NCBI GenBank assembly: GCA_002238725.1 | Contig: MPMX01000019.1 | Location: 1-64,000, forward strand | Direction: 5' to 3' | Length of the DNA: 64,000 nt | DNA from: Rhodospirillaceae bacterium bin65 | Lineage (GTDB): Bacteria > Pseudomonadota > Alphaproteobacteria > Bin65 | Shown here: positions 25,629 to 41,908 of the stretch, piece after piece | How positions within the stretch are numbered: position 1 is the stretch's first letter | Layout: each line of letters starts with the position of its first letter | Translations under genes and position numbers: made by a program | The notes under the pieces: model-generated | Told to the model about the DNA's origin: nothing | Database searches by the model: none | What the model saw: only the letters and a program-made list of their open reading frames with translations

Positions 25629-26699
25629 CTACGCCGCGGCGGCTCCTGATTCTTCCGCTTCCAGTGCAGTGAACAGCTTGCGGATGCTCATCACCGCCTT
25701 GTCCGTCTTGAGCGGGACTTCCGAATAGCCGTCATCGTCGTATTCGAACATCTTCTGCTGTTTCTCGAGCGCCCAGCGATCCTCTTCGATGACCGTCGGG
25801 AATGTCTCCGAGAATCTTTCTGCAACCGACTTCGACGGATTGCCGGCGTGCTTGTAGTAGGCCGGCGTGTTGACGATCCAGTGCCATTCGACATTCTCGC
25901 GGTCGATGGGAAAATGCGTGTGATAGAGGACGTAGCCGCGATCCTCTCCCGCGCCCAGCTTTCCCGGGGGCGCGACACGAATTTCGACCCTCGTCAGTCC
26001 GGGGTTCATCATGTGATGGGTGTGGTCGCGGTCGACGAACTCATAGCCGAACCAGTCGACCATCATCGGCGGCTGCTCATAGCCTTCCGCCTGCCTTATC
26101 GATTTGATCGTGTGATTGCCGTCGATGATATCCTCTTCGAACCGGACGGGAATTCGGCTGTTCGCCTCGTCGCCGATATTGCCGTCGTGCAGCGGGTAGA
26201 AGTGCGTGATATCCAGCAGGTTTTCGATGACCAGGCGGTAGTTCGCGTTCACGCGAATCGCTTCGGAGCTGACCGTATCCCACTCGTCGCTGACCAGTTC
26301 CGGCGTCCGCGGCGGCCGGCAATTGCCGATCTTTACCGGGTCGCCCGGCCAGAGCCAAACGAGCCCCTCCTGCTCGACGACGGGATAGGGGCGCAGTTTT
26401 GCCCTAACCGGGATCGGCCCATCGGGCTGGGACGGTATCTTAACGCAGATCCCTTCGGTATCGTAGCAAAGGCCGTGATATGCGCATTCGAGAAGTCCGT
26501 TCTCCAGCAAACGGCCGGCCGACAGCGGCATGCGCTTGTGCACGCAGCGATCGTCGAAGGCGGCAACCTCGCCATCCGCGGCGCGCCACATGACCATCGG
26601 TTTTCCGCCGATCACGCGACCCTGTAATTCGCCAACCGGGAACTCCGAAGCCAGTCCGGCCGCATACCAGGCGTTCAGTATCAAACTGTTCGCGATCAT
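25629..26699 (-). CDS. Rieske [2Fe-2S] ring-hydroxylating oxygenase (VanA-like)
   Basis: A 356-residue oxygenase component of the vanillate-demethylase type. The Rieske cluster ligands are CVHKRMPL (C-x-H) and CAYHGLCYD (C-x2-H), about residues 49-75. The mononuclear iron site is in NLLDITHFYPLHDGN, two histidines after a bridging-type Asp. The start ATG 26699 has AGAGG five bases upstream; GTG 26705 is in frame. No reductase gene is nearby, so electrons must come from an unlinked partner. It ends the minus-strand series behind the TetR gene and could hydroxylate or demethylate an aromatic or N-heterocyclic ring. Confidence 0.92.
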   Translation of the reverse strand: MIANSLILNAWYAAGLASEFPVGELQGRVIGGKPMVMWRAADGEVAAFDDRCVHKRMPLSAGRLLENGLLECAYHGLCYDTEGICVKIPSQPDGPIPVRAKLRPYPVVEQEGLVWLWPGDPVKIGNCRPPRTPELVSDEWDTVSSEAIRVNANYRLVIENLLDITHFYPLHDGNIGDEANSRIPVRFEEDIIDGNHTIKSIRQAEGYEQPPMMVDWFGYEFVDRDHTHHMMNPGLTRVEIRVAPPGKLGAGEDRGYVLYHTHFPIDRENVEWHWIVNTPAYYKHAGNPSKSVAERFSETFPTVIEEDRWALEKQQKMFEYDDDGYSEVPLKTDKAVMSIRKLFTALEAEESGAAAA

Positions 26700-26851
26700 C
26701 GTCACCTCTCAGTAACCGGCCTGCACCGATGAACGATCCGCATGTTGTGCGATTGCGTCCCCATCCGCAATGCCGATAACGAAGGTTGCTTCCGCCGCGG
26801 GCCCATCGGTGCCGCCGGTCTGTCCGAAAAGGCGGGACCGCCTCAGCCCAG

Positions 26852-27145
26852 TCACGGGTTCTCCAGCAGTTCGATTTCGACGAATACGAACTCGTAATCG
26901 TTGGCGTTGATCACATCGTGGTCGACGCCGCGCGGCCGGTTGTAGGGCTGGCCGGTGACAAGCTCGGCGTCGCGCGTGCCGTCCGGCTCGACCAGGCGGA
27001 GGGTTCCGGTGGTGATGGGCACGACGACATAATCGTACTCGTGAACGTGGCGTCCGGTCGCTGCGCCCGGGGCGAAGCGCCACTCGGTCACCCGGACCCG
27101 GTCATTCTCGATCATTACCGTCGGTACCGCCTTAATCTCGCTCAT
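26852..27145 (-). CDS. Small cupin-domain protein
   Basis: A 97-residue single cupin. Motif 1 reads FAPGAATGRHVHEYDYVVVPITTG with metal-ligand histidines, and motif 2 reads NRPRGVDHDVINAND. The start at 27145 (MSEIKAV) has GGAGG with a 5-base spacing. The protein is too short for 3-hydroxyanthranilate dioxygenase (about 170 residues), but small cupins are known as quercetinase-like, sulfur dioxygenase-like or sugar isomerase-like proteins. It lies between tryptophan dioxygenase and the Rieske gene in the same orientation, so a metabolic role in that pathway is likely. Confidence 0.82.
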   Translation of the reverse strand: MSEIKAVPTVMIENDRVRVTEWRFAPGAATGRHVHEYDYVVVPITTGTLRLVEPDGTRDAELVTGQPYNRPRGVDHDVINANDYEFVFVEIELLENP

Positions 27146-27197
27146 GGCTTCCTCCAAAGGGTGCAGTCTGCATCGGCCCGGCAGGTTCCGCCGCCGA

Positions 27198-28136
27198 TTA
27201 CAAATCGTCCCGGATATCCCAGAGTTCCGGGAAGAACTTGTGCTCGGTCACGCTGCGCAGCCAGCCGACGCCGGCCGAGCCGCCGGTACCCGGCTTGTAG
27301 CCGATGATCTTGTGGACCGAAGTGAAATGCCGCCAGCGATAGAACGAGAACTTTTCGTCGACCGAGACCAGGGCCTCCGCCAACCGGTACAGCAGGTTGT
27401 CCGCCGCCGGGTTCTCGTACACTTGCAGCCATGCCGCGCGAACCGAGGCGTTCGGTTTGTATTCTTCGGACCAGTCCCGGTTCAGGGCCGCATCGTCGAT
27501 CTCGTACCCCGCTTCGCTGACGGCCGCGATGGCGGCATCGTACAGGCTCGGCGAATTCAGGGCTTCCTCGATTGCGGGCCAGACATGAGGCACATTCCTG
27601 TGTGCGCTGGCCAGGCGCATGTTCTTGTTGCCGAGGATGAATTCGACGTGCCGGTACATGAAGGAAAGCTGCCCGGACGCCGTCGACAGATAGTCGCGAA
27701 ATTCGTTGAAACCCTCGGTCGTTATGGTGGTCAGGACATTCCATGAGTTCGCGATGTAGTCGATGAATGCGCCGGCCCGCGAAAGAATGATCAGCGCATC
27801 GGCCAGGTTTCCTTCCCGGATTTGCGCCCGCGCATTGTAAAGCTCGAAATGCAAGCCGCGGAACAGCAGCTCCTTGGTCTGCCCCATGACGAAGAAACAC
27901 ATCTCGTCGTAGCCGCCGCTGCGCGGGTGCTGCAGCGAGAGCAGCAGATCGATACTCTGATAGTCGATATAGGGGTTGGTCCTGCCGTCGAAGGTCACCG
28001 TCGGCTCGCCGCCGGTTTCCCGGGCGGCTGCAAGGCGCGATTCCGCGCTGGATTTGCCCATCGGCCGCGGATCGACCGACGCCACAACCCGGGAGGCGTC
28101 GATCAGATCGGGAAACACGGGTTTGTATCTCGGCAT
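27198..28136 (-). CDS. kynA: Tryptophan 2,3-dioxygenase
   Basis: A 312-residue heme dioxygenase that opens the indole ring of L-tryptophan to N-formylkynurenine. Clear family blocks are YDEMCFFVMGQTKELLFRGLHFEL, the QLSFMYRHVEFILGN block, and RWRHFTSVHKIIGYKPGTGGSAGVGWL with the heme-ligand histidine. The start ATG 28136 has GAGGAGA upstream. Length is slightly above the bacterial norm (about 280). It begins 11 bases after the kynurenine-formamidase-like gene, so the pair should be translated from one message and would give kynurenine. Confidence 0.94.
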   Translation of the reverse strand: MPRYKPVFPDLIDASRVVASVDPRPMGKSSAESRLAAARETGGEPTVTFDGRTNPYIDYQSIDLLLSLQHPRSGGYDEMCFFVMGQTKELLFRGLHFELYNARAQIREGNLADALIILSRAGAFIDYIANSWNVLTTITTEGFNEFRDYLSTASGQLSFMYRHVEFILGNKNMRLASAHRNVPHVWPAIEEALNSPSLYDAAIAAVSEAGYEIDDAALNRDWSEEYKPNASVRAAWLQVYENPAADNLLYRLAEALVSVDEKFSFYRWRHFTSVHKIIGYKPGTGGSAGVGWLRSVTEHKFFPELWDIRDDL

Positions 28137-28147
28137 TCCTTGTCTCC

Positions 28148-28993
28148 TCAGACACCGGCCAGAGCGGCCAGCTTTTTTCCGAGCGCCGTATCGTTTGCGA
28201 TGTCATCGACGATATCGAAGTGATTGCGCGCTTCCATTTCCAGGGTCTCGACCTGACGGCCGGCAGCTGCCAGCAAACCCGCAAAATACCGGCTCTGGCG
28301 CTTGAATTCGTCCGTTTCCTGCCGCCCCCAGGAGATCACGGCCTTCGGGAATGCGCCCAGGTCCGCCAGCGCCGGACTGTTTCGATCCGTCGTTTCCCGA
28401 TCCATCCCGAGAGCCTCGTTGACGTAGGTGCCGAGTAGCGGGGCAAGCTCGTATATCCCCGACATAAGCACAGCGCCCGAGGGGCGAAGATGCGGCGGCA
28501 GTTTCAGGCAGCACATTGCGGCCAGATGAGCCCCGGCGGAACTGCCGGTCACGACGATGCGCTTAGGGTCGACCCCCAGCTCCCCGGCGCCGGCGGCCAG
28601 GCGGGCGAGCGCAGCGCAGCATTCTTCGACGATGTCGTCGATGCCGGCATCCGGCGCCAGCGTGTAGTCCACCGCGGCAAAGGCCATGCCGCGCGACAGG
28701 GTGTCGATTGCCGGGAAGAACGACTCATTCTTGGAAAGCTCCTGCCAATAGCCGCCGTGGATGAAAACATGAAGCGGCACGGCAGAGGCGGAAGAGGGCG
28801 CAATGACATCGATCGTATTCGACGGACGCGGGCCGTAGCCGATGCTTCGCACGTTCGGGCACGCGGCATAGGCTGCCGCGCTCTTGTCGACATAGCCCTG
28901 GATATACGGATCCAGGTCTCCGTCGAGCGCGGAGCTGGGCGAATAGGCGATCGCGCGGGTCTCGGCATCCATGGAACGCCACAGGGGTTTCAC
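28148..28993 (-). CDS. Kynurenine formamidase-like alpha/beta hydrolase
   Basis: A 281-residue alpha/beta hydrolase of the kynurenine-formamidase/HSL type. The oxyanion motif is FIHGGYWQELSKNES, the nucleophile elbow VTGSSAGAHLAAM, and the acid/histidine parts lie in the last 60 residues (EARNHFDIVDDI). HGGYW is characteristic of eukaryote-like kynurenine formamidases, unrelated to the cyclase-fold KynB. The start is GTG 28993 with GGAGGTGCGAAG immediately upstream. Position next to tryptophan dioxygenase makes hydrolysis of N-formylkynurenine the likely reaction; deformylation of another N-formyl product is possible. Confidence 0.87.
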   Translation of the reverse strand: MKPLWRSMDAETRAIAYSPSSALDGDLDPYIQGYVDKSAAAYAACPNVRSIGYGPRPSNTIDVIAPSSASAVPLHVFIHGGYWQELSKNESFFPAIDTLSRGMAFAAVDYTLAPDAGIDDIVEECCAALARLAAGAGELGVDPKRIVVTGSSAGAHLAAMCCLKLPPHLRPSGAVLMSGIYELAPLLGTYVNEALGMDRETTDRNSPALADLGAFPKAVISWGRQETDEFKRQSRYFAGLLAAAGRQVETLEMEARNHFDIVDDIANDTALGKKLAALAGV

Positions 28994-29035: not shown

Positions 29036-29611
29036 TTACTCGCCCAGAATCAGATCGACCATCAGGTCGAGGCAGCGCTCGAGCCTTCGGGACGGCCCGA
29101 CAAGGACGTAGTTCACGGCGAATCCGTCGAACGCCATGAACAGGATATGGGCCAGCGCGGTGTCCTGCATCTGCCGTGCGCGCGCTTCCGGCAGGCACGA
29201 AACGATGAGGTCGGTAATGCGGCGCTCGGCCCAGCGCAGCAGGTCGCGCGAATAGCGGCCTTCGCTGCCCGAGACCGCCAGCCCCTCGACAAAAGTGTTG
29301 CCGAAGGCGCCGTCGGCCGCCGGAAACGTCTTCCACAGCGTCGCGACGATCGTGCGCAGCCGCTGCCGCGGATCGGAGATCGCCGCCGCCTCGGCTTCGA
29401 GCGCCCGGATCTGCCCGCGCAGCCACGGATCGTAGATCGCGAACAGGATGTCCAGCTTCGAATCGAAATAGACATACACGTTCGACGGCGAAATGCCGGC
29501 CCGCTTGGCGATGCCGCGGATCGTCGTCGCGGCATAGCCCCCTTCCTCGAACTCCCGGCGGGCGCTGTCTACGATGCCGGCGCGAACGTCTTCTTTTTTG
29601 GTTTGCGCCAT
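29036..29611 (-). CDS. TetR family transcriptional regulator
   Basis: A 191-residue TetR-type repressor. The N-terminal helix-turn-helix is typical: IVDSARREFEEGGYAATTIRGIAKRAG then SPSNVYVYFDSK. The ligand/dimer domain fills the rest. The frame continues upstream to 29707, but MAQTKKEDVRA is the normal start. It reads leftward at the head of a series (formamidase 42 bases behind) and is divergent from the NicX-like gene. A palindrome at 29667-29681, repeated at 37297-37311, is the probable operator; binding by this protein is inference. Confidence 0.92.
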   Translation of the reverse strand: MAQTKKEDVRAGIVDSARREFEEGGYAATTIRGIAKRAGISPSNVYVYFDSKLDILFAIYDPWLRGQIRALEAEAAAISDPRQRLRTIVATLWKTFPAADGAFGNTFVEGLAVSGSEGRYSRDLLRWAERRITDLIVSCLPEARARQMQDTALAHILFMAFDGFAVNYVLVGPSRRLERCLDLMVDLILGE

Positions 29612-29666
29612 GGCCGAATCGATCTTGACTTGCCTGCCCGGTAGACCGCACCTTGGGGCCATAAAC

Positions 29667-29681
29667 GAACAGTGTTCTTTT
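29667..29681. promoter_or_regulatory. Probable TetR operator, copy 1 (tetR/nicX-like intergenic)
   Basis: The plus strand reads GAACAGTGTTCTTTT. Its core GAACAGTGTTC is an inverted repeat with a single central base. The reverse complement AAAAGAACACTGTTC is identical over 15 bases to 37297-37311. On the minus strand a candidate TetR promoter (TTGCTT at 29707-29702, CATAAA partly inside the site, 17-base spacing) would be blocked by a bound repressor. The site lies 55-67 bases from both divergent starts. Confidence 0.75.
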
Positions 29682-29733
29682 ATGCAATGCCCCCTTTGTG
29701 CAAGCAAGGGCCGGCGACCGAGGGAGTAGGAGC

Positions 29734-30813
29734 ATGGTGCATCTCAATCAGCGCGCGCAAGAGGTCAATCCGGCCAAGCTGGCCATGCTGTACAAGCGCC
29801 AGTTCGAGCTGTGCCGGGTGCAGGAAGGCGAGACCATCGCCTGCGTCTCGGACCTGTCGACCCGGCGCGAATATATCGAGGCCGCGTTCGCCGCGGCTGA
29901 CGAGCTGGGCGCGGACATCTACGAGATGTGCGTCAACAGCATCCCGTCCTGGACAAGGGTCGGCGTCGCCACGATCGGCCAGTGCAAGGGCACGCTCGAA
30001 GCGGCCAAGGCGGCCGACATGATCGTCATCTTCCATGTTCCGCTGTTCACCCGATGGCTGAAGGACGTGACGGAGGCCGGCACACGGGTGCAGATGATCA
30101 TCGATTCGCCGGACGACCTGGAACAGCTCATGGCGCCCGAAGGCCTGAAGGAAGCCTGCCTTTACGGCGACGCCCTTTATGCCAAGACGAAGACGGCCCG
30201 GGTCATCAGCGACGCCGGCACCGACCTGACGTGGGAATGCGGCGAATACCCGGTGATGACCCAATACGGTTTTGCCGATGCGCCCGGGCGGTTCGACCAT
30301 TGGGGCGGCGGCCATATCCACACCTTCCCGAACGAGGGCTCGGCCAACGGCACGGTCGTCCTCGCGCCGGGCGATATCGTGATCCTGCCCTACTGCCGCT
30401 ACATCCAGGACGAGGTCCGCCTCACCGTCGAGGACGGCTACATCCGCAAGGTCGAGGGCGGGCTCGACGCCAGGCTGATGCAGGACTGGCTGGACGACAA
30501 CCGGGAAGACGAGACCGACATGGATCCCTATGCGATCTCGCATCTCGGCTGGGGCCTGAACCCGCAGGCCCTGTGGTATGGCATCGCGCTCAACGGCGAC
30601 GAGCCGGAGCGCAGCCGGGCCGCGGCGCGCACCTTCCCGGGCAATTTCCTGTTCTCGACCGGGCCGAACACGCAAGGCGGCGGCAAGCGCACCACCCGCG
30701 GCCACTACGACGTGCCGATGCGCGACTGCACGATGATGCTGGACAACAAGGTGATCATCGAGAAGGGCCGGATCGTCGATCCGGCGATGATCGTGCCGCG
30801 GGAAATGCGCTAG
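29734..30813 (+). CDS. NicX-like 2,5-dihydroxypyridine 5,6-dioxygenase family protein
   Basis: A 359-residue iron dioxygenase with an M29-aminopeptidase-like fold, the family of nicotinate-pathway NicX, which opens 2,5-dihydroxypyridine to N-formylmaleamate. The three expected iron ligands are visible: His in ISHLGWGLNP (about residue 270), and the H-x-D pair in RGHYDVPMRD (about 326-328). Further family sequence is HWGGGHIHTFPNEGSANG. ATG 29734 follows GGGAGTAGGAGC. It is the first gene of a plus-strand operon with a molybdenum hydroxylase, as expected for N-heteroaromatic breakdown. The exact ring substrate is not certain. Confidence 0.85.
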   Translation: MVHLNQRAQEVNPAKLAMLYKRQFELCRVQEGETIACVSDLSTRREYIEAAFAAADELGADIYEMCVNSIPSWTRVGVATIGQCKGTLEAAKAADMIVIFHVPLFTRWLKDVTEAGTRVQMIIDSPDDLEQLMAPEGLKEACLYGDALYAKTKTARVISDAGTDLTWECGEYPVMTQYGFADAPGRFDHWGGGHIHTFPNEGSANGTVVLAPGDIVILPYCRYIQDEVRLTVEDGYIRKVEGGLDARLMQDWLDDNREDETDMDPYAISHLGWGLNPQALWYGIALNGDEPERSRAAARTFPGNFLFSTGPNTQGGGKRTTRGHYDVPMRDCTMMLDNKVIIEKGRIVDPAMIVPREMR

Positions 30814-30851
30814 CCGCTGGCGCCGGCGCGCCGGGCCGCCGATTTGCGCCT

Positions 30852-31313
30852 ATGAAGATTGCCGGCAGTTTCAACGTTGCGGCGCCTGTGGAACTGACCT
30901 GGCGGGCGATCACCGACCCGCAGGTCGTCGGCGCCTGCCTGCCCGGCTGCGAGGAGATCGAGGCCGTGTCGCCGACGCTGTACCGCGCCCGGATCGGCGT
31001 GAAGCTGGGCCCGATCTCGGCGACGTTCGCTGCGGAGGTCGAGGTGCTCGAGGAGGAGCCGCCCGTCAGGGTCGTATCGGTGACGCGCGGCGAGGAAGGC
31101 GGCCGCGCCAGCCATATCCGATCCGAAAATACCCTGACGCTCGAACCGGCGGATGACGGCGGGACGCGCGTGTCCTATGAAGCGGACATGACGGTCACCG
31201 GGCGGCTTGCCAAATTCGGTTTCGGCGTGATGAAGAAGAAGGCGCAGTCGCTGGCCGCGGATTTTGCCGGCAATCTCGAAGCCCGGCTCAACGAAGCGGC
31301 AAGCGGCGGATAG
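30852..31313 (+). CDS. CoxG-like SRPBCC protein
   Basis: A 153-residue START/SRPBCC-fold protein of the CO-dehydrogenase subunit G group: MKIAGSFNVAAPVELTWRAITDPQVVGACLPGCEEIE is the standard opening, and GVKLGPISATFAAEVEV the second block. CoxG proteins associate with maturation or membrane recruitment of CoxMSL-type enzymes. The C-terminal membrane anchor of classical CoxG is absent; the protein ends soluble at NEAASGG. It lies 38 bases after the NicX-like gene and 6 bases before the FAD subunit. Confidence 0.88.
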   Translation: MKIAGSFNVAAPVELTWRAITDPQVVGACLPGCEEIEAVSPTLYRARIGVKLGPISATFAAEVEVLEEEPPVRVVSVTRGEEGGRASHIRSENTLTLEPADDGGTRVSYEADMTVTGRLAKFGFGVMKKKAQSLAADFAGNLEARLNEAASGG

Positions 31314-31319
31314 ACGGTC

Positions 31320-32174
31320 ATGGAATTCATCAGGCCGGACAGCATCGACGCCGCGGTCGCCGCCCTCCAGGCGGAGAACGCGGCCTGCCTCGCCGGCGGC
31401 GCGACGCTGGTCGCCATGATGAACGCCGATCTGGTGGCGCCGGAGCGGCTGGTCTCGCTGCGCGACGTGGCCGCCTTGCGCACTGCAATGCGGCAGCCCG
31501 ACGGCAGCGTGGTCATCGGCGCCATGCGCCGCCATCGCGAGACCGCGGAGGAAACCGACCTGCGCGACGGCCAGCGTGTGCTGAGCGATGCGGCGGGGCA
31601 GATCGCCAACCCGCCGGTCCGCAACATGGGCACCATCGGCGGCTCCTGCGCCTTCGCCGATCCGGCGGCCGATTATCCGCCCGCCCTGGCCGCCGCCGAT
31701 GCGCGGATTGCGCTGGTCGGCGCCGAAGGCCGGCGCACCCTCCCGGCCGACGCGTTCTTTGTCGACTGGTACGAGACCGCGCTCGAGCCGGGCGAGCTGA
31801 TCGAATCCGTCATCCTGCCGCCGGCGCCGGCGGGAACGGCCGGCAGCTACACCAAACTGGCACGGGTCGCCGGCGATTTCGCGATTGCTTCGGTCGCGCT
31901 CGTGCTTGGGATGGAGGGGGATGCCTGCTCGCATCTGGCGGTTGCGGTCGGGGCCTGCGGACCGGCGCCGGTCCGGCGGCGCGACGTCGAAACCGAATTG
32001 CTTGGCGGTGGCCTAGGCGATTCTGAAATCCGGCGGCTCACCGACGCTCTGGCAGACGGGCTCGACCCGGTCGACGATGTGCGCGCCAGCGCGGACTACC
32101 GCCGCAGGGTCGCGCCCCGGCTGGTCCGCCAGGCCATCGCCGAAGCGAAACAGTGTTTGTCGGGGACGCAATGA
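31320..32174 (+). CDS. Xanthine dehydrogenase family FAD-binding subunit (CoxM-like)
   Basis: A 284-residue medium subunit of a molybdenum hydroxylase. FAD-contact motifs are AGGATLVAMMNADLVAPERLV (about residues 35-55) and the TIGGSCAFADPAADYPPALAAADA block (about 105-128), followed by the C-terminal CO-dehydrogenase flavoprotein domain. It passes electrons from the 2Fe-2S subunit to an acceptor. Its stop overlaps the start of the next gene (ATGA), showing translational coupling. Confidence 0.93.
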   Translation: MEFIRPDSIDAAVAALQAENAACLAGGATLVAMMNADLVAPERLVSLRDVAALRTAMRQPDGSVVIGAMRRHRETAEETDLRDGQRVLSDAAGQIANPPVRNMGTIGGSCAFADPAADYPPALAAADARIALVGAEGRRTLPADAFFVDWYETALEPGELIESVILPPAPAGTAGSYTKLARVAGDFAIASVALVLGMEGDACSHLAVAVGACGPAPVRRRDVETELLGGGLGDSEIRRLTDALADGLDPVDDVRASADYRRRVAPRLVRQAIAEAKQCLSGTQ

Positions 32175-32644
32175 CTGGCGCTTCCATTACCCTCAAGGTC
32201 AACGGCGCCGACAGGCCGGTCGCCGCGGTTGCGCCGTGGACCACGCTGCTGACCGTGCTGCGCGACGAACTGGGGCTGACCGGCGCCAAGCGCGGCTGCA
32301 ACCAGGGGGTGTGCGGCGCCTGCACGGTGACGATCGACGGCGAGCCGGTGCGCAGCTGCCTGTCGCTGGCGCTGAACTGCACGGACTGCGAAATCGCCAC
32401 CGTCGAAGGGCTGGCGCCGGCAGGCTCGCTGGCGCCGGTCCAGCAAGCGCTGGCCGAGGGCAACGCGTTGCAGTGCGGCTTCTGCACCCCCGGTATCCTG
32501 ATTGCCGCCCACGCCCTGTTGCGGCGCAATGAGCCGTTGTCGGTGGACGAGGTACGGGCCGGCCTGTCCGGCAACCTGTGCCGCTGTTCGGGGTACAAGA
32601 AGATTGTCGAAGCCGTCGTCCGGGCTTCGGAGGCGCGGCCATGA
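32171..32644 (+). CDS. 2Fe-2S subunit of molybdenum hydroxylase (CoxS-like)
   Basis: A 157-residue small subunit carrying two [2Fe-2S] clusters. The plant-type N-terminal cluster has GCNQGVCGACTV plus CLSLALNC, and the C-terminal helical cluster has CGFCTPG and NLCRCSGYKKIV. The start at 32171 overlaps the stop of the FAD subunit gene and the stop overlaps the start of the large subunit, both as ATGA. The longer frame from 32153 is not needed. Confidence 0.95.
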   Translation: MTGASITLKVNGADRPVAAVAPWTTLLTVLRDELGLTGAKRGCNQGVCGACTVTIDGEPVRSCLSLALNCTDCEIATVEGLAPAGSLAPVQQALAEGNALQCGFCTPGILIAAHALLRRNEPLSVDEVRAGLSGNLCRCSGYKKIVEAVVRASEARP

Positions 32645-34968
32645 GCCCGCCCGATACCGCCGCAAGCGGCGTCGGCGCCAGCCTGCCCAGGCTCGACGCG
32701 CGGGAGAAGGTGACCGGTCGCGCGCAGTATATCGCCGACATGGTCCGGCCGAACATGCTCCACGCGGCGATCCACGCCAGCCCGGCCGCCCATGCGCTGA
32801 TCACGGGCTACGACACCGCCGAAGCGTCGGCGGTGCCGGGCGTCGCCTGCGTTCTGACCGGCGACGACTTCCCGGACGGCCGCATGGGCGCCTTCATCAA
32901 GGACGAACCGGCCATCGCGAAAGGCAAGGTCCGCTATCCCGGCGAGCCGGTCGCCGTCGTCGCCGCGGAGGACGAAGAGACCGCGCGCCGGGCCGCTGCC
33001 CTGATCCGGGTCGACTACGAGGACCTGCCGGTCGCCGCCACGCCGGACGACGCGATGGCGCCGGACGCGCCAGTTATCCACGAGGACCTGCCGGACTATT
33101 TCAAGGTCTTCCCGGCCATCTGCGGCGGCAATGTCGCCTCGGAGACCGAGCTGTCCGAAGGCGATGTCGACGCCGCCTGGGCGGAGTGCGACGTCATCGT
33201 CGAAGGCGAGTTCGAGACGCCGGCCCAGGCCCATCTCTCCATCGAGCCGGTCGGCGCCCTGGCGGAGGTCGATGCCGACGGGCGCGTTACACTCTGGTCG
33301 GCCAACCAGTCGGTCTTCCGGGTCCAGGCGAATGTCTGCGAAGCGCTGCAACTGCCGATGTCGAAGCTGCGCTGCCTCACGCCCAAGGTCGGCGCCGGCT
33401 TCGGCAACAAGATGGAGCCGCATGTCCAGCCGCTCGTCGTCCAGCTGGCGCTCAAGACGGGCCGGCCGGTCAGGCTGATCCTCAACCGGACCGAGGATTT
33501 CGAGACGGTGCGCGCGCGCCATCCGTTCAAAATCCGCTGCAAGACCGGCGCGAAGAGGGACGGCACGCTGGTCGCGCGCGAACTCAGCGCGATCCTGGAT
33601 TGCGGCGCCTATGGCGACGACAGCCCCGGCGTGCTCGGCTACAGCCTGCTCATGAGCCGGGGGCCGTACCGCATCCCGCACTGCCGCACCTCCGGCAAGC
33701 TGGTCTACACCAACCGCATGCGTTTCGGCGCGTTCCGCGGTTTCGGCAACCCCCAGGTCACCTTCGCGACCGAAAGCCAGATCGACGAAATCGCCGGCCG
33801 GCTCGGCATGGACCCTCTCGACCTGCGCGTGAAGAACATGATGCGGCCCGGCGACCGCTGGTTCGGCGGCGGCGAGGTCGCCTCGAACGGGCTGGCGGAA
33901 TGTATCGAGAAAGCAAGCGCGGCGTCGGGCTGGCGGCAGGGCAGGGCGCGGGCGGCCCCATCCGGCAAGCGACGCGCCCTGGGCGTTGCGGCCTGCGCCC
34001 ATATCAGCGGCCTGCTGGCGACCGGCGCCATCGTCCGGCTGCTCGAGGACGGCTCCGTCGTGCTCAACACCGGCGCGGTCGATATCGGGCAGGGCTCCGA
34101 TACCGTGCTGACCCAGATGTGCGCCTCGGCGCTCAGGGTCCCGGCCGACCGGGTGGCGATCGCCAGCCCGGACACCGACGGCTCGCCCTACAACTGGGGC
34201 ACGACGGCGAGCCGCGTCACCTATACGACCGGGCGCTCCGTGGTCGCCGCGGCGGGGCATGTCGCCGAAGAGATCAAGCGCCACGCCGCCGAGATTTTCG
34301 AGTGCGCCGTCGGGGATCTCGAACTGCGCGACGGCGGCCGGGTCGGCATCAAGGGCGTGCCGGACAAGGAGCTGAGCTATTTCGAGGTCTCGGCCCGGGC
34401 GCACTGGGCCGCCGGCGGGCCCATCGTCGGCGCCGACACCTGGGTCTACAACCAGCCGAGCGTCGATCCGAAACGGGCGATCGCCCGCGGCCTGCCCTTC
34501 CCGCAGATCGGGGTCTACAGCTTCGGCTGCATGATCGCGGCGGTCGAGATCGACGAGACGACCGGTAAGGCCGACGCTGTCGAGGTCTGGTCGGCGATGG
34601 ATGTCGGCAGGGCGATCAATCCCGGCTCGGTCGAGGGCCAGATCGAGGGCGGATTCGTCCAGGGCATGGGCTTCGCGCTGACCGAGGAGATGGTGTTCGA
34701 CGGGCCGCGACTCGTGAATCCGTCGATGATGGACTACAAGGCGCCGACGTCGCTCGATGCACCCTTCGACATCCATTCGATCATCGTGGAGGCGGCTGAG
34801 CCCGACGGGCCGTTCGGCGCCAAGGGGATCGGCGAGATCGGGCTGGTGCCGGCGCCGGCGGCGATCGGGAATGCCGTGGCGGCGGCGACCGGCGCGCGGC
34901 TGCGCCGCTTGCCGCTGACGCCTGAGCGGGTGCTGAACGGATTGCTGGAGAGCGACAGTGAAGATTGA
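32641..34968 (+). CDS. Molybdopterin-binding large subunit of xanthine-dehydrogenase family hydroxylase
   Basis: A 775-residue catalytic subunit. Domains are an aldehyde oxidase hammerhead domain (about 20-130) and the molybdopterin-binding region. The GAFRGFG segment (about residue 363) is the xanthine-dehydrogenase type rather than the AYRCSFR loop of CO dehydrogenase, so CO oxidation is unlikely. The active-site glutamate is in GAKGIGEIGL near residue 727. Three-subunit enzymes of this kind hydroxylate N-heterocycles beside nitrogen (nicotinate, quinoline, nicotine types). It is the natural partner of the NicX-like ring-cleavage enzyme; substrate is inferred only as an N-heteroaromatic. 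Confidence 0.92.
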   Translation: MSPPDTAASGVGASLPRLDAREKVTGRAQYIADMVRPNMLHAAIHASPAAHALITGYDTAEASAVPGVACVLTGDDFPDGRMGAFIKDEPAIAKGKVRYPGEPVAVVAAEDEETARRAAALIRVDYEDLPVAATPDDAMAPDAPVIHEDLPDYFKVFPAICGGNVASETELSEGDVDAAWAECDVIVEGEFETPAQAHLSIEPVGALAEVDADGRVTLWSANQSVFRVQANVCEALQLPMSKLRCLTPKVGAGFGNKMEPHVQPLVVQLALKTGRPVRLILNRTEDFETVRARHPFKIRCKTGAKRDGTLVARELSAILDCGAYGDDSPGVLGYSLLMSRGPYRIPHCRTSGKLVYTNRMRFGAFRGFGNPQVTFATESQIDEIAGRLGMDPLDLRVKNMMRPGDRWFGGGEVASNGLAECIEKASAASGWRQGRARAAPSGKRRALGVAACAHISGLLATGAIVRLLEDGSVVLNTGAVDIGQGSDTVLTQMCASALRVPADRVAIASPDTDGSPYNWGTTASRVTYTTGRSVVAAAGHVAEEIKRHAAEIFECAVGDLELRDGGRVGIKGVPDKELSYFEVSARAHWAAGGPIVGADTWVYNQPSVDPKRAIARGLPFPQIGVYSFGCMIAAVEIDETTGKADAVEVWSAMDVGRAINPGSVEGQIEGGFVQGMGFALTEEMVFDGPRLVNPSMMDYKAPTSLDAPFDIHSIIVEAAEPDGPFGAKGIGEIGLVPAPAAIGNAVAAATGARLRRLPLTPERVLNGLLESDSED

Positions 34969-35785
34969 AGACTACCCGCCGCAGGAGCCGCTCGCGGACT
35001 ACGCCCGGCCCTATCACGAGGAGGTCCAGCGCCTTGGCGCCGGCATCGCCTACGAGGAATTCGCCTACGGCGGCGACGCCTATCAGGGCGTGCTGGTGGC
35101 GCGGGCGGCCGAGCCGACCGGCGACGTGCTCGCCTTCATCCACGGCGGCGGCTGGACCAACGGCTACAAGGAATGGATGGCCTTCATGGCGCCGGCGCTG
35201 ACCGGCCGCGGCATCACCTTCGCCTCCATCGGCTACCGCCTCGCCCCCGGCACGCTGTTTCCGGACGGTTACACCGATGTGCTGGACGGTTTCGCCGCGC
35301 TGCACGGCCGGATCGGCGCGTTCGGCGGCGATCCCGGCCGGATGTTCGTCGGCGGCCATTCCGCCGGCGGCCACTACAGTTCGCTGATGGCGGTGACGGA
35401 CGGGTGGCAGGTGGCGCGTGGGCTGCCGCCGGATGTCGTGCGCGGCTGCCTGCCGGTTTCCGGCGTGTTCGAATTCCGCGAGGGCAGCGGCATGAAGGTG
35501 CGGCCGCGCTTCCTAGGCCCGGCGGAGACCGGCGCGGAAGTGCCGGCCAGCCCGATCGCCAACATCGCCCACACGCCGCCCTTCCTGATGGCCTGGGGCA
35601 GCGAGGATTTCCCGCATTTGCGGCGCCAGGGCGAGGAGATGGCAGCCGCGCTCGAAGCGGCCGGCGGTAGCGCCGAGACCATGGTCTTCGAAGGCTGCGA
35701 CCACTTCCACGCCAACTACGAGGCCGGCAACCCGGACGGCGCGTGGCCGGAACGCGCTACGGCCTGGATGGCGGAGCAAGCGTAG
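34958..35785 (+). CDS. HSL/kynurenine-formamidase-type alpha/beta hydrolase
   Basis: A 275-residue alpha/beta hydrolase starting at GTG 34958 and overlapping the large-subunit stop by 11 bases, so translation is coupled. Oxyanion motif FIHGGGWTNGYKEW, nucleophile elbow VGGHSAGGHYSSL (about residue 134), acid in WGSEDFP and histidine in EGCDHFHANYE. In nicotinate degradation the step after NicX is deformylation of N-formylmaleamate by an alpha/beta hydrolase, so a deformylase or amidase role is attractive, but NicD is of a different subgroup. It ends the plus-strand operon. Confidence 0.87.
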   Translation: MKIEDYPPQEPLADYARPYHEEVQRLGAGIAYEEFAYGGDAYQGVLVARAAEPTGDVLAFIHGGGWTNGYKEWMAFMAPALTGRGITFASIGYRLAPGTLFPDGYTDVLDGFAALHGRIGAFGGDPGRMFVGGHSAGGHYSSLMAVTDGWQVARGLPPDVVRGCLPVSGVFEFREGSGMKVRPRFLGPAETGAEVPASPIANIAHTPPFLMAWGSEDFPHLRRQGEEMAAALEAAGGSAETMVFEGCDHFHANYEAGNPDGAWPERATAWMAEQA

Positions 35786-36190
35786 GCCGGGGCCTTCACC
35801 GGCGGCGCCAACGGCCCCCGCGGCGGCCGGGGTCCGGCGTGTCATGAAATGTCATGATCCATGCCGCTTCGCCTTCTCCCGTCATTCCGACCGAAGCGAT
35901 CCCAAGGATCGCGTAGTGGAGGAATCTCGTCGCCGGCGGCCGGTGCCTGTTTCCAATACCCAGCCGAGGTCCCTCCACTCGCACGCGCTCGGTCGGGATG
36001 ACGGGCGAGGAGGCGAAAGTGTCATGATTTGTCCCGTTCGGTCGGGTCCAGCCGCAGCAGGAACTGGACAGACCATTCTGTTTTTAGTGATTTTTTTTGC
36101 ACACCGGCCTTCCTGCTCGAAGCTGCTGGTTTGTTCATATTATGTTCCTGAAAGAGTGTCAAGCCATTTCACCGGGAATGTCGCGGTCGT
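35786..36190. other. Intergenic region with inverted-repeat element and T-rich tail
   Basis: I see no gene in these 405 bases, which separate convergent genes. It contains the inverted-repeat element described separately (about 35868-36018), flanked by the similar sequences GTCATGAAATGTC (35841-35853) and GTCATGATTTGTC (36021-36033). Bases about 36075-36140 are AT-rich with T runs (TGATTTTTTTTGC) and may terminate transcription arriving from either side. Confidence 0.5.
35868..36018. repeat. REP/MITE-like inverted-repeat element
   Basis: The left arm (about 35868-35898, containing GTCATTCCGACCGAAGCG) and right arm (about 35986-36018, containing CGCTCGGTCGGGATGAC) are imperfect reverse complements over roughly 30 bases, with about 85 bases between. 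The interior GTAGTGGAGGAATCTCG and the arms resemble dispersed intergenic repeats found in many bacterial genomes. No coding capacity. Confidence 0.65.
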
Positions 36191-37177
36191 TCAGGACCGC
36201 TCCACGTCGCGCCATGCGCCGCTTTCCGCGGCCGAGCCCGTCATCGCTTCCATCGCGGCGACGTTGGCGATCGCTTCTTCAGGCGTCACGGCGACCGTGC
36301 CTTCGCCGCGAACGGCTGCCGCGAACCGGGCCAGTTCTTCGGCGACCGTGTCGACCGGCTCGAGCGGGAACGCCGTCACGGCGCCATCCAGGGCAGCGTG
36401 GGTCAGCCGGGCGAAATCCTCGCTTGCGGTGTAGATCCCGTTCGTGGTGCAGACCCGCAGCCAGGCGTCGAGCGAGGTCGCGAACAGGCTGGTGAGGGTC
36501 GCCGTCAGCCCGGACTCGAACTCCAGCAGGGCGGTCGTGACATCGTCGATATCGACCGGCGCCGCCGCCCGGCGCGCCAGGCAGCTTACCCGGCGGACCG
36601 GGCCGAAGAGCCATTGCACGGTATCCACGATGTGCAGCCCCATCGACGCGAGCCCGCCGCCCGGCGCCTCTTCGCGCTGGGCGCGCCACATGTCCGGCCG
36701 GTAGCCGAGCGCGCTCGGGCTGGAAAAATGGCCTTCGAGATGCAGCACCGTCCCGAAGGCCCCCTCCTCAAGCAGGCTGCGCAGCCGCACCGCCGCGCCG
36801 CTGAGCCGCCGGTTGTGCCCGACGGTCAGCACGACGCCGGCGTCGCGGCAGGCCTCGGCCGCCGCCCGGCCGCTCGCCGCGGTAAGCGTGAACGGCTTTT
36901 CGACGAAGACATGCCTGCCGGCCCGCGCGGCGGCCACGACCTGTTCGGCGTGCAGCGAGTGCGGCGTGGCGATCAGCACGGCCTCGACCGCCGGATCGGC
37001 GAGCGCATCGGCGAATACCGGGCCGGCGGGGCAGCCGAAATCCTGCACGAATGCCTCGCGCTCCGCGGCCACGGGCGAGACGCCGGCGACAAGATCGAGT
37101 CCGGGAACGCTTCGGGCCGCCTGCGCCAGTTCCCGGCCCCACCAGCCCAACCCGATCACGGCAACCCCGATCGCCAC
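36191..37177 (-). CDS. Gfo/Idh/MocA family oxidoreductase
   Basis: A 328-residue NAD(P)-dependent oxidoreductase. The Rossmann start is GVAVIGLGWWGRELAQAA, the hinge motif is HVFVEKPFTL (EKP, about residue 93), and GGLASMGLHIVDTVQWLFG is the usual second-domain motif with conserved His. The start is GTG 37177 with AAGGAGG seven bases upstream. It is divergent from the importer 2 binding-protein gene across 233 bases containing operator copy 2, so shared control with the TetR regulon is likely. Family substrates range from sugars and inositols to cyclic amides. Confidence 0.92.
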   Translation of the reverse strand: MAIGVAVIGLGWWGRELAQAARSVPGLDLVAGVSPVAAEREAFVQDFGCPAGPVFADALADPAVEAVLIATPHSLHAEQVVAAARAGRHVFVEKPFTLTAASGRAAAEACRDAGVVLTVGHNRRLSGAAVRLRSLLEEGAFGTVLHLEGHFSSPSALGYRPDMWRAQREEAPGGGLASMGLHIVDTVQWLFGPVRRVSCLARRAAAPVDIDDVTTALLEFESGLTATLTSLFATSLDAWLRVCTTNGIYTASEDFARLTHAALDGAVTAFPLEPVDTVAEELARFAAAVRGEGTVAVTPEEAIANVAAMEAMTGSAAESGAWRDVERS

Positions 37178-37296
37178 GGCTCGCCTCCTTCGAACGATAA
37201 TTTCCGAACCCGCCGGCCGGTCGCAGGAGCATGCCGGTACGGGTCCGAATTTCTGCCGCCACCCTTATAGCAGCACCCGCGACCGGAAATTCTCAA

Positions 37297-37311
37297 AAAA
37301 GAACACTGTTC
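37297..37311. promoter_or_regulatory. Probable TetR operator, copy 2 (oxidoreductase/importer intergenic)
   Basis: AAAAGAACACTGTTC here is identical over 15 bases to the complement of the site at 29667-29681. The local inverted repeat extends to AGAACACTGTTCT with one central base. A TTGACC at 37316-37321 just downstream could be a -35 element for the rightward importer, and TATAAG-like sequence on the minus strand (37264-37269) could serve the leftward oxidoreductase, so a bound regulator would affect both. Confidence 0.72.
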
Positions 37312-37410
37312 TGTATTGACCCCGGACGCCGAACCCGGTGAACTGCGAACGGAACGCTGCGCGGCCGAAAACCGCATGACGGCCGGACCAGAAACGGGAG
37401 GATCCCACAT

Positions 37411-38589
37411 ATGAAGAAATTCGTTGGAGTATTGGCGGCTTCGGCGCTTGCTGCTGCCGCCTGGGCCGCGCCTGCGCAGGCGGCCGAGGTCAGGATCGGC
37501 TATTCGATCGCCAAGACCGGCCTGTTCGCGCCGGCCGCGCCGTCGCAGATCAATGCCTACAATCTGTGGGCGGAGCAGGTGAACGCCCGGGGCGGCCTCG
37601 ACCTCGGCGGCAAGGAAAGGCGCAAGGTCAAGCTGATCCAGTACGACGACCAGTCGAACCCCGGCAACGCCGTGAAGATCTACGAGAAGCTGATCACCCA
37701 GGACAAGGTGGACCTGCTGCTCTCGCCCTGGGGCACGCCGCATCATTTCGCCATCGCGTCGGTGCTCGAGCGGCACAAGTTCCCGATGATCGGCAGCACC
37801 GCCTCGTCGGTGCAGCTGCGCAACATGAAGCCGGGCAACATCTGGTTCACGACCGCGGCGGTGGCGGACAAGCTGGCGACCGCGATGGTCGGGCTGCTCC
37901 AAACGGCCGGCGTCAAGTCCGTAGCCGTCCTGACCAACCAGCTGCCGTTCGGCCAGGAGAACAAGAAATTCCTGATGCCGGCCCTGAAGGCCGCCGGGAT
38001 CGAGGTTCTCGTCGATGCCGACTATCCGCCCAACATCAAGGACATGACGGCGATCCTGGTGAAGGTGAAGGCGGCGAAGCCGGACGGCGTGATCGGGCTG
38101 GCCTATCCGGGCGACTCCATCCTCTACATCAACAAGGCGCGCGAAATCGGGATCGCCGCGAAATTCCAGTATCTGCTGGTCGGGCCGGCCATCGGCTTCT
38201 TCCGCGGCATGTTCAAGGGCGCGGCCGACGGCATCGTCACCCTCGGCCACTGGTCGCCGCACGGCGACAACGCCCGCTCCAAGGCCTTCTATGCCGCCTA
38301 CAAGAAGAAGTTCAAGCAGGAGCCGGACTATCTCGATTCGGTCGAAGCCTGGGTTTCTGTCGAAATCCTCGAGCAGGCGGTCGCCAAGGCCGGCCTGGAC
38401 AAGGACAAGCTGCGCCAGGCGATTTCGACCGGCACCTTCGACACCATCATCGGCAAGGTCCGCTTCGACGGCGTCCAGAATGCGGTGACGCCGACGGGCT
38501 TCCTGCAGATCCAGAAGGGCGAGTTGCACGTCGTCTGGCCGAAGGACCGCCAGACCGCGCCGCTCGCGCCGAAGACCGGTTGGAAATAA
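37411..38589 (+). CDS. Liv-type ABC transporter substrate-binding protein, importer 2
   Basis: A 392-residue periplasmic binding protein of the type 1 fold. The signal peptide spans about residues 1-24 and ends AAPAQA, followed by AEVRIGYSIAKTGLFAPAAPSQINAYNLWAEQVNARGG. The start ATG 37411 follows ACGGGAGGATC. Lobe motifs such as KVDLLLSPWGTPHHFAIASVLERHKFPMIG are present. It heads a five-gene importer operon placed under the same putative operator as the NicX-like operon, so its ligand may be the aromatic or amide substrate of that pathway rather than an amino acid. Confidence 0.93.
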   Translation: MKKFVGVLAASALAAAAWAAPAQAAEVRIGYSIAKTGLFAPAAPSQINAYNLWAEQVNARGGLDLGGKERRKVKLIQYDDQSNPGNAVKIYEKLITQDKVDLLLSPWGTPHHFAIASVLERHKFPMIGSTASSVQLRNMKPGNIWFTTAAVADKLATAMVGLLQTAGVKSVAVLTNQLPFGQENKKFLMPALKAAGIEVLVDADYPPNIKDMTAILVKVKAAKPDGVIGLAYPGDSILYINKAREIGIAAKFQYLLVGPAIGFFRGMFKGAADGIVTLGHWSPHGDNARSKAFYAAYKKKFKQEPDYLDSVEAWVSVEILEQAVAKAGLDKDKLRQAISTGTFDTIIGKVRFDGVQNAVTPTGFLQIQKGELHVVWPKDRQTAPLAPKTGWK

Positions 38590-38672: not shown

Positions 38673-39545
38673 GTGGAATTTCTCCTGTCGGGGCAGTTGC
38701 TGGTGGCGGCCCTGATTATCGGCTCGATCTACGGGCTGGTCGCGCTCGGCCTGAACCTGATCTACGGCACCATGCGCCTGCTCAACATCGCGCATGGCGA
38801 TCTGGTCATGATCGGGGCCTATACCGGATACTGGCTGTTTACCTTGGCGGCGATCTCGCCGGTGCTCGCCATGCTGGCCGCCGGGGCGCTCGCCGGCCTG
38901 ACCGGGGCGGCGCTCTATTTCGGGCTGTTCCGGCGGCAGCTCACCGGCAGCCAGCCGATAGAACGGATCGAAGCAAACTCGCTGCTGATCTTCTTCGGCA
39001 TCTCGATCATCATCCAGAACCTGACGGCGCTCGCCTTCACCGCCAGCCCGCGGACCTACCAGGCGCTCGATACCCTCGTCCGCATCGGTGAGGTCAGCAT
39101 CGCGCAAAGCCGGCTCGTGGCGCTGGCGGTGTGCCTCGGCCTGTCCGCCGCGATCGTGCTGTTCCTGCGCTTCAGCGCGCTCGGCCTGTCGATCCGGGCG
39201 CTGATCCAGCACCGGACGGCGAGCCGGATCGTCGGCATCGACGTCGACCGGGTCCAGGCTTTCCCCTTCGTTCTCGGCCTTGCCGGCACCCTGATCGGTG
39301 TCACCGAACAGATTTCGCCTTTCATGGGCTTCCCCTTCACCATCGTCGCCTTCGTCGTGATCATCCTGGGCGGGCTGGGAAACCTCGCCGGCGGTATCGC
39401 GGCCGGTATGGTGCTCGGATTGATCGAGACCTATGGCGTCGCCCTCACTTCGGCGAACCTGCGCTCGGTGCTGATCTACGGCGTCTTCATTCTCGTCCTG
39501 ATCCTGCGGCCCGAAGGCCTGCTGCAACGGCGCCGCCTGACATGA
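38673..39545 (+). CDS. livH: Liv-type ABC transporter permease (LivH), importer 2
   Basis: A 290-residue inner-membrane permease with eight or so hydrophobic segments. The conserved LivH opening is GSIYGLVALGLNLIYGTMRLLNIAHGDLVMIG, and the coupling loop is RALIQHRTASRIVGIDVDRV. Start is GTG 38673. Its stop codon overlaps the ATG of livM (ATGA), showing translational coupling within the importer 2 operon. Confidence 0.94.
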   Translation: MEFLLSGQLLVAALIIGSIYGLVALGLNLIYGTMRLLNIAHGDLVMIGAYTGYWLFTLAAISPVLAMLAAGALAGLTGAALYFGLFRRQLTGSQPIERIEANSLLIFFGISIIIQNLTALAFTASPRTYQALDTLVRIGEVSIAQSRLVALAVCLGLSAAIVLFLRFSALGLSIRALIQHRTASRIVGIDVDRVQAFPFVLGLAGTLIGVTEQISPFMGFPFTIVAFVVIILGGLGNLAGGIAAGMVLGLIETYGVALTSANLRSVLIYGVFILVLILRPEGLLQRRRLT

Positions 39546-40471
39546 GGCTGCCGGCGCCGCGCGAAACCGTTCCGCTGCTGCTGGTCGCTGCGATCGCTGC
39601 GATCCTGCCCGTGTTCGGCAGCGACTATTACCTCGGCGTCGGTTTCGCCCTGTTCGGCTGGATTGCCCTCGTGCAGAGCTGGACAATCGTCTCGGGGCTG
39701 GCCGGCTATATCTCCCTCGGCCATGTCGTGTTCGCCGGGATCGGCGGCTATGTCCTGGTGCTGACCTGGGGCGCTGTGCCGGTCTGGGCGGGGGCCGTGC
39801 TGGGCGCCTTGGCGGCCGGCCTGTTCGCGCTGCTGGTCGGCCTGCCGGTGCTCCGGGTGCGCGGACCCTATTTCGTCATCCTGACTTTCGGCCTCGCGGA
39901 ATTCGCCAAATATGTCGTCATCAATATCGAGAACGCGCTGGGAAAATTCGGCCGGCTGATCCTGGGCGGGCCGCAGGTCGAAACCCTGTACTGGGCGATG
40001 GCAGCGGCCGCCCTCGCCGGAACGCTGGCCGTGATCGCCACCCGGCGCGTGCGCCTCGGCGCCGGGCTGGCGGCGGTCCGCGAGGACGAACTGGCGGCGG
40101 AAACCATCGGCGTCCCCACGGTGCGCTTCAAGCTGTTCGCCTTCGCCCTTTCCGCCCTGCTGCCCGGTTTCGTCGGCGCCCTGTTCGTGCTGCGCACCGG
40201 CTATTTCGAGCCCGCGCAGGCGTTCGACCCGGTGATCTCCTTCACCATCGTCACCATGGCGATCATCGGCGGCAGCGAGGATGCGCGCGGCCCGGTCCTG
40301 GGCGCCCTGTTCCTGGTCGTCCTGTCGGAGTTGCTGTGGGCGAGCTTCCCGCAGGTCTACATGATAATTCTCGGCGCATTGCTGATCGGCTTCGTGCTGT
40401 TCGCGCCCAACGGCGTTGCCGGCCTGCTGGATCGCCTCCGGTCAACCGGCGGCGCCCGGGCGGCGACATAG
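39542..40471 (+). CDS. livM: Liv-type ABC transporter permease (LivM), importer 2
   Basis: A 309-residue inner-membrane permease. LivM features are WTIVSGLAGYISLGHVVFAGIGGYV (about residues 45-70) and the coupling loop GLAAVREDELAAETIGVPTVRFKL (about 178-200). The start at 39542 overlaps the livH stop by four bases; frames starting further upstream lie in livH. It is followed by livG after 4 bases. Confidence 0.94.
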   Translation: MRLPAPRETVPLLLVAAIAAILPVFGSDYYLGVGFALFGWIALVQSWTIVSGLAGYISLGHVVFAGIGGYVLVLTWGAVPVWAGAVLGALAAGLFALLVGLPVLRVRGPYFVILTFGLAEFAKYVVINIENALGKFGRLILGGPQVETLYWAMAAAALAGTLAVIATRRVRLGAGLAAVREDELAAETIGVPTVRFKLFAFALSALLPGFVGALFVLRTGYFEPAQAFDPVISFTIVTMAIIGGSEDARGPVLGALFLVVLSELLWASFPQVYMIILGALLIGFVLFAPNGVAGLLDRLRSTGGARAAT

Positions 40472-40475
40472 CGCC

Positions 40476-41192
40476 ATGCTGACGGTCGACCGGATCGGCA
40501 AGTCCTTCGGCGGCGTCCGCGCGCTGCACGACATCTCCTTCACCGTTCCCGAAGGCAGCATCTACGGCATCATGGGGGCGAACGGCGCCGGCAAGACGAC
40601 CCTGTTCGCAACCATCGCGGGCAATCTGGCGCCGAGCGCCGGCGAGGTGCGGTTGCGCGACCTGCGGTTGACCGGGCTGCCGCCGCACCGGATTGCCGGC
40701 GCCGGCGTGGCCCGCACCTTCCAGATCGTCCGGCCGTTCCGCGGCCTTTCCGTTCGCGAGAATGTGGCGACGGGCCTGCGCTTCGGCGCACGCAACCGGG
40801 CCGGCGCCGCTGCCCTGGACGCGGCCGGCATTCTCGGGCTGACCGGCCTGGCGCCTGTGGCGGACCGGCCGGCCGGCGCCCTGACGCTGGCGCAGCAGAA
40901 GCGCCTGGAAGTAGCGCGGGCCTTGGCGACCGGGCCGCAATTGCTGCTGCTCGACGAAGTCATGGCCGGCCTGACGCCCGCCGAGGTGCAGCAAATGATC
41001 GCCATGGTCAGGAGCATCCGCTCCGACATGGGCGTCACGGTGATGATCATCGAGCATGTGATGGGCGCATTGATGGCGCTGTCCGACCATGTCGTCGTGC
41101 TCGATCACGGCGAGACGATCGCCGCCGGGCCGCCGGAGGACGTCGCCGACGATCCGGCGGTCCAGACCGCCTATCTGGGGCGTCGGCGATGA
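40476..41192 (+). CDS. livG: Liv-type ABC transporter ATP-binding protein (LivG), importer 2
   Basis: A 238-residue ABC ATPase. Walker A GANGAGKTT near residue 35, signature region LTLAQQKRLEVAR (a LivG-style degenerate signature lacking the full LSGGQ), and Walker B LLLLDEVMAGLTP. The D of the Walker B is followed by Glu as expected. The start at 40476 (MLTVDRIGKSFGG) is chosen over 40416. The stop overlaps the livF start as ATGA. Confidence 0.93.
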   Translation: MLTVDRIGKSFGGVRALHDISFTVPEGSIYGIMGANGAGKTTLFATIAGNLAPSAGEVRLRDLRLTGLPPHRIAGAGVARTFQIVRPFRGLSVRENVATGLRFGARNRAGAAALDAAGILGLTGLAPVADRPAGALTLAQQKRLEVARALATGPQLLLLDEVMAGLTPAEVQQMIAMVRSIRSDMGVTVMIIEHVMGALMALSDHVVVLDHGETIAAGPPEDVADDPAVQTAYLGRRR

Positions 41193-41908
41193 ACGATGGC
41201 GCGCTGCTCGATGTCCGGGGGCTTGCCGGCGGCTACGGCCCGGTCAAGGTGCTGCACGGCATCGATTTTTCCTTGCCGGGCGGAAGGATCACCGCGCTGG
41301 TCGGCGGCAACGGCGCCGGCAAGACGACGGCCATGGCGATGCTGGCGGGATTGCTGGAACCGGATTCGGGAACGATCCGCTACGGGGGCAGCGCGGTCGA
41401 AGGCTGGGGCTCGGCCCGGCGTGTCGCCGCCGGCATCGTCCTGGTGCCGGAGGGACGTCTGGTCTTCCCCGATATGACGGTGGAGGAAAACCTCCGCCTC
41501 GGCGCGATCAACCGGCAGGCGCGCCGGCATACGGCGGACGGCATGGAGCAGGTCTACGCGCAGTTCCCGCGGCTGGGCGAGCGCCGGCGGCAGAGCGCGG
41601 GCACGCTCTCCGGCGGCGAGCAGCAGATGCTTGCGCTGGGCCGGGGCCTGATGTCCCGGCCCCGGATACTCCTGCTCGACGAACCGAGTCTGGGACTGGC
41701 GCCGATGATGGTCGATCTGATTTTCGAGGCCATCGGGGCGCTGGCGGCAGGCGGCATGACCATCCTGCTGTCGGAACAGAATGTCGGCCTTTCGCTGGAA
41801 CTGGCCGACCGGGCCTATGTGTTGGAAAACGGCGCAATCGCGCTCTCCGGTTCCGGCCGGGATCTGCTCGGCAATGCCGAGGTCCGGCGGGCCTATCTGG
41901 GGCTGTGA
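41189..41908 (+). CDS. livF: Liv-type ABC transporter ATP-binding protein (LivF), importer 2
   Basis: A 239-residue ABC ATPase with Walker A GGNGAGKTT, signature LSGGEQQMLALGR, Walker B ILLLDEPSLGLAP and a C-terminal REEVRRAYLGL-like ending (AEVRRAYLGL). It is translationally coupled to livG and is the last gene of the importer 2 operon; the next gene is convergent, 16 bases away. Confidence 0.95.
   Translation: MNDGALLDVRGLAGGYGPVKVLHGIDFSLPGGRITALVGGNGAGKTTAMAMLAGLLEPDSGTIRYGGSAVEGWGSARRVAAGIVLVPEGRLVFPDMTVEENLRLGAINRQARRHTADGMEQVYAQFPRLGERRRQSAGTLSGGEQQMLALGRGLMSRPRILLLDEPSLGLAPMMVDLIFEAIGALAAGGMTILLSEQNVGLSLELADRAYVLENGAIALSGSGRDLLGNAEVRRAYLGL

Follow-up and report, generated by a model that had tools for sequence, protein, structure and literature searches.

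A shared palindrome as putative TetR operator at a NicX-like catabolic operon and a Liv-type importer

Described systems and the present locus

In the nicotinate catabolism of Pseudomonas putida, the TetR-family repressor NicS is reportedly autoregulated and works through a shared palindromic operator. The locus studied here is alike in three respects: a TetR gene stands beside a hydroxypyridine-type operon, a palindrome lies at the promoter and there is a second target operon. It differs from the NicS system in its coxGMSL-type hydroxylase and its Liv importer, and neither nicC nor nicF was seen in the operon. The BioQ boxes of actinobacteria (TGAAC-N3-GTTCA) likewise belong to a TetR-type regulator (PMC3398298) and have the core geometry GAAC-N3-GTTC in common with our element. 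BioQ targets biotin genes, however, while other genes are concerned here and an AATAnC arm precedes GAAY; with arms and target genes both different, identification of the element as a BioQ box was rejected. A literature search found no paper with this motif as an operator; from bacteria, GAACACTGTTC was matched just once, by a primer in the paper that describes the BioQ box. The Liv-type ABC importers (branched-chain amino acid family) share the five-gene JHMGF set with the window, i.e. the whole 64,000-nucleotide stretch of DNA that was analyzed. Unlike the Liv amino acid importers, the window set is linked to an aromatic/heteroaromatic catabolic cluster, and its cargo is therefore probably not an amino acid.

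Our analysis argues for a regulon of a convincing but ordinary type of gene control, in which a TetR protein would bind two palindromes, repress both tetR plus the nicX operon and livJHMGF, and be released by a small molecule of the pathway. We put the probability of this reading at roughly 0.88. It offers a testable operator, regulator and two-promoter regulon for a heteroaromatic catabolic module.

Putative operator sites and extent of the proposed regulon within the genus

The proposed repressor of both sites is a TetR-family regulator of 191 aa (29036-29611, minus strand; PF00440, E=1e-15), whose TetR_N HTH domain scores 57.6 bits against a cutoff of 24. Next to its gene lies a palindromic operator that is likewise conserved at its orthologs. 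All further genes of the proposed regulon lie on the plus strand. The first is a predicted NicX-like non-haem Fe(II) ring-cleaving dioxygenase of 359 aa (29734-30813), followed by a CoxG-like protein (30810-31313; PF06240), the CoxM-like FAD subunit of a molybdenum hydroxylase (31320-32174; PF00941), a probable CoxS-like 2Fe-2S subunit (32153-32644; assigned by its position, which homologs also occupy in relatives), a CoxL/XdhA-like molybdopterin subunit (32578-34968; PF02738, PF20256) and the alpha/beta hydrolase hydB (34958-35785; PF07859), a candidate for the next step after NicX. The importer comprises a livJ-type substrate-binding protein (37411-38589; PF13458), the permeases livH (38673-39545; PF02653) and livM (39554-40471; PF02653) and the ATPases livG (40416-41192; PF00005/PF12399) and livF (41189-41908; PF00005). 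A second Liv-type substrate-binding protein in the window (19875-21065) is without this operator.

An earlier note on this DNA had described a 15-base operator, AAAAGAACACTGTTC, at 37297-37311 and, in reverse complement, at 29667-29681, with no third copy in the window. Both exact matches were recovered, both are intergenic, and an exact scan of the window with GAACANTGTTC returned these two sites only. The 15 bases are thus present at both places, but the element itself is larger. The actual putative operator is a palindrome of 23-25 bp with a half-site of about AATAnCGAAY, its arms AATAnCGAAY and RTTCGnTATT flanking three central bases; the AAAA of the 15-mer is part of one arm. Putative operator 1, CATAAACGAACAGTGTTCTTTTATG, is a 25-bp imperfect palindrome between tetR and the nicX-like gene (29660-29684), and putative operator 2, CAAAAAAGAACACTGTTCTGTATTG, a second one upstream of livJ (37294-37318); neither is assigned to a strand.

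With up to three mismatches, AAAAGAACACTGTTC was seen six times in the window, four of them at the two sites, compared with 0.22 expected from 100 dinucleotide shuffles. In the genome (a draft of 94 contigs and 4.29 Mb, 96% complete), GAACANTGTTC occurs exactly at the same two places among 4,288,405 bases, and its reversed control nowhere. The observation of the earlier note is correct, and on firmer ground than it stated. The short core with up to one mismatch was dropped as a probe for the genome scan; it is too loose and by itself not diagnostic, because it matched at 40 places and its reversed control at 15. The long palindrome, in contrast, is diagnostic. A genome-wide scan, which the earlier note had proposed, leaves the predicted sites restricted to the target promoters: AWWAMMGAAYNNNRTTCKKTWWT is exact at both sites, and only three further places have two mismatches, compared with one in the reversed control.

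Comparison among relatives, proposed there as well, found both putative operators in 7/7 members of the genus and better conserved than their flanks. At site 1, 21/25 operator columns are invariant across the genus compared with 39/104 flanking columns; at site 2 the figures are 18/25 and 50/164. Set against G004, the species farthest from it, the window agrees in 22/25 operator positions at each site and in 50/104 and 71/164 positions of the flanks. Operator 1 of G004 reads CATAAACGAACGTTGTTCGTTTATG, a palindrome perfect except at its center.

Site 2 of the window has the arrangement TATTGACC-N17-TGAACT, which we read as a predicted livJ promoter (37316-37344, plus strand) with TTGACC at 37316-37321, a spacer of N17 and TGAACT at 37339-37344; its -35 hexamer overlaps operator 2. 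At livJ of G004 the same two hexamers stand at the same N17 spacing, with a diverged spacer sequence. On the other side of operator 2 lies a Gfo/Idh/MocA oxidoreductase gene (36191-37177, minus strand), divergent from livJ. Operator 2 might govern mainly this gene, or both divergent genes equally: the Gfo/Idh gene begins some 120 bp away from it and is found in 6/7 species. Yet G004 has the site and livJ without any Gfo/Idh gene, and the conserved hexamers point toward livJ. We consider such control unlikely, if the most probable of the alternatives, and leave the membership of the Gfo/Idh gene uncertain. Site 2 is also not essentially divergent, as the earlier note had it for both promoters, since in G004 it lies between the co-directional genes hydB and livJ. 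Outside the genus, where a Liv importer adjoins hydB, importer and enzyme genes mostly form one run; no separate operator was seen there between hydB and livJ, which fits a single operon. In the simplest history, livJ would have acquired the site in this genus, and the Gfo/Idh gene would have arrived later or been lost in G004. Within the intergenic region between hydB and Gfo/Idh (35870-36030), a pair of inverted GTCATTCCGACCGA / TCGGTCGGGATGACGG-like arms resembles an interspersed repeat element.

The claim that 25.6-41.9 kb forms one regulated unit stands for a proposed conserved regulon of tetR, nicX-coxGMSL-hydrolase and livJHMGF. It may not extend to the arm directly downstream of tetR (25629-28993, minus strand), which is lineage-specific and consists of the alpha/beta hydrolase gene hydA (28148-28993), a TDO-like (tryptophan-2,3-dioxygenase-like) gene (27198-28136), a cupin gene (26852-27145) and a Rieske oxygenase gene (25629-26705). 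Of the genus members examined, just the window and the sister species G006 carry this arm; elsewhere tetR has a TRAP transporter beside it (G004) or stands alone with a convergent unrelated gene (G003). The segment at 25.6-29.0 kb is accordingly a candidate member by its position downstream of tetR only. With a score of 281.8, the TDO-like protein stays below the curated cutoff that applies to true tryptophan dioxygenase (390.7), and the Rieske oxygenase is of VanA type.

Relatives outside the genus and the proposed mode of control

TetR relatives were collected from the same class and from 50 contigs of public genomes. In 27 of those 50 contigs a NicX-like gene is linked to the TetR ortholog, the order being nicX, usually then coxG, coxM, coxS, coxL and a hydrolase gene, and often livJHMGF. 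The module occurs in Rhodospirillaceae MAGs (one labelled sponge-derived), rhizobia, Comamonadaceae and others. In 26/27 TetR-linked loci nicX is preceded by a palindrome of this form; L084 has no site directly upstream of nicX. Outside the genus the palindrome upstream of nicX reaches the threshold in 21/22 TetR-linked loci, compared with 1.3% of 697 decoy windows drawn from the same contigs. A matrix trained on 16 outside-genus loci ranks the two window sites on top with 27.7 and 24.2 bits, the next score being 5.9; its best score in a 4.29-Mb Markov sequence is 15.1. The training sites were chosen by a consensus seeded with the core seen here, so that this step is not fully blind and the decoy test serves as its control.

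The palindrome could belong to a different regulator, another TetR or a global one, with the neighboring TetR incidental. Two observations would suit this: Mesorhizobium TetR loci without nicX have their nearest site 1.3 kb beyond livG, not adjoining tetR, and the TetR gene of G007 (product 72% identical) has no operator and no nicX next to it. The site nevertheless tracks the TetR lineage, with tetR or nicX next to it in 26/27 linked loci, and a global regulator would be predicted to have more than two sites per genome. A regulator other than the neighboring TetR is thus quite improbable.

In L069, where the cluster is rearranged, a separate operator accompanies each of the nicX, coxM and SBP/TRAP-transporter units, which makes it an independent case of separated units each having one. 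Two operator-like palindromes lie 85 bp apart between the substrate-binding protein gene and the TRAP transporter (L069:1780-1887), and this pair suggests that TetR proteins of this family control different importers. An Opitutales MAG has a short TetR-domain relative with GAACAATGTTC-type sites beside it; three GAAC-N3-GTTC palindromes (L106:6225-6968) lie near this TetR, which is similar only in the DNA-binding domain. The limit of the operator family is marked by the TetR of Variovorax SRS16 (36% identical, beside a liv set), where no such operator site was found.

In most outside-genus nicX loci the palindrome overlaps a promoter of the TTGACA-N16/17 type. In many relatives its right arm continues into TATTGAC, the -35 box (e.g. 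TTGACA-N17-CCTAAT in L094 and L097), and in others the palindrome sits within the promoter spacer or over the -10 element. A palindrome over or abutting the -35/-10 elements has the geometry of steric repression, and this fits a repressor. Some TetR proteins activate, and at the two sites this one might do so too, or might have a dual role that depends on a ligand. A sigma-70 consensus scanner called no promoter at either window site, which for site 1 would suit activation and makes repression at that site an argument from the homologs. Against activation speak the usual occlusion geometry of most nicX loci and the palindrome that touches the livJ -35 box in the window; we regard it as slightly less probable still than a foreign regulator.

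The TetR protein is very probably the repressor of both sites, because within-genus conservation, the outside-genus matrix, the 21/22 loci and the overlap with -35/-10 elements point the same way. The earlier claim of a TetR-centred two-site regulon is hence strongly supported, as far as conservation, matrix and genome-wide uniqueness can carry it. Since just 15 bases are identical, a chance match or a copied repeat might be suspected, but whole-genome uniqueness, conservation and the matrix and decoy-window tests refute this to the point of leaving it hardly any credence.

For the repressor, we infer the following course of events. A TetR dimer or a pair of dimers would occupy each palindrome of 23-25 bp, repressing at site 1 tetR itself along with the divergent nicX-coxG-coxM-coxS-coxL-hydB operon and at site 2 the livJHMGF importer. 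RNA polymerase would be blocked where the palindrome covers or abuts the promoter elements. A small molecule of the pathway, either the N-heteroaromatic substrate once taken up or an intermediate formed early on, would release the repressor, and uptake and ring hydroxylation/cleavage would thereby be induced together. Site 2 would keep the importer co-regulated even though importer and catabolic operon can now be separated, which would make the locus a clear case of an operator holding an importer under the control of the enzymes when gene order breaks.

The NicX-like enzyme and the pathway

The window NicX-like protein is homologous over its full length to NicX of P. putida (PDB 7cn3; E=1.2e-66). 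It keeps the Fe ligands His265, Ser302, His318 and Asp320 as well as His189, and across the lineage the Fe(II) ligands H265/S302/H318/D320 are conserved in 27/27 aligned residues, with one gap each. The iron ligands are thus the same, but the binding residue Glu177 of P. putida NicX, which contacts N1/O1 (ring nitrogen and oxygen) of the substrate (PMC7910607), is Gln in 28/28 lineage members examined. Four other NicX homologs, from plasmids, retain Glu177. Because of this replacement, 2,5-dihydroxypyridine is probably not the substrate. His105 of NicX was dropped as a discriminator, as Phe is found there in other NicX homologs too. A search for a new ring-cleavage substrate could start directly from the Gln177 dioxygenase lineage.

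At somewhat better than even odds, we would extend the reading to an alpha- and betaproteobacterial regulon in which one TetR governs both the import of an N-heteroaromatic compound distinct from 2,5-dihydroxypyridine and its ring cleavage by a Gln177 NicX subfamily, with an importer operator gained when the importer became separable from the enzymes. Taken together, the NicX-like protein, the molybdenum hydroxylase and the hydrolase suggest that an N-heteroaromatic compound is hydroxylated, ring-opened and hydrolyzed. In minimal loci hydB directly follows nicX.
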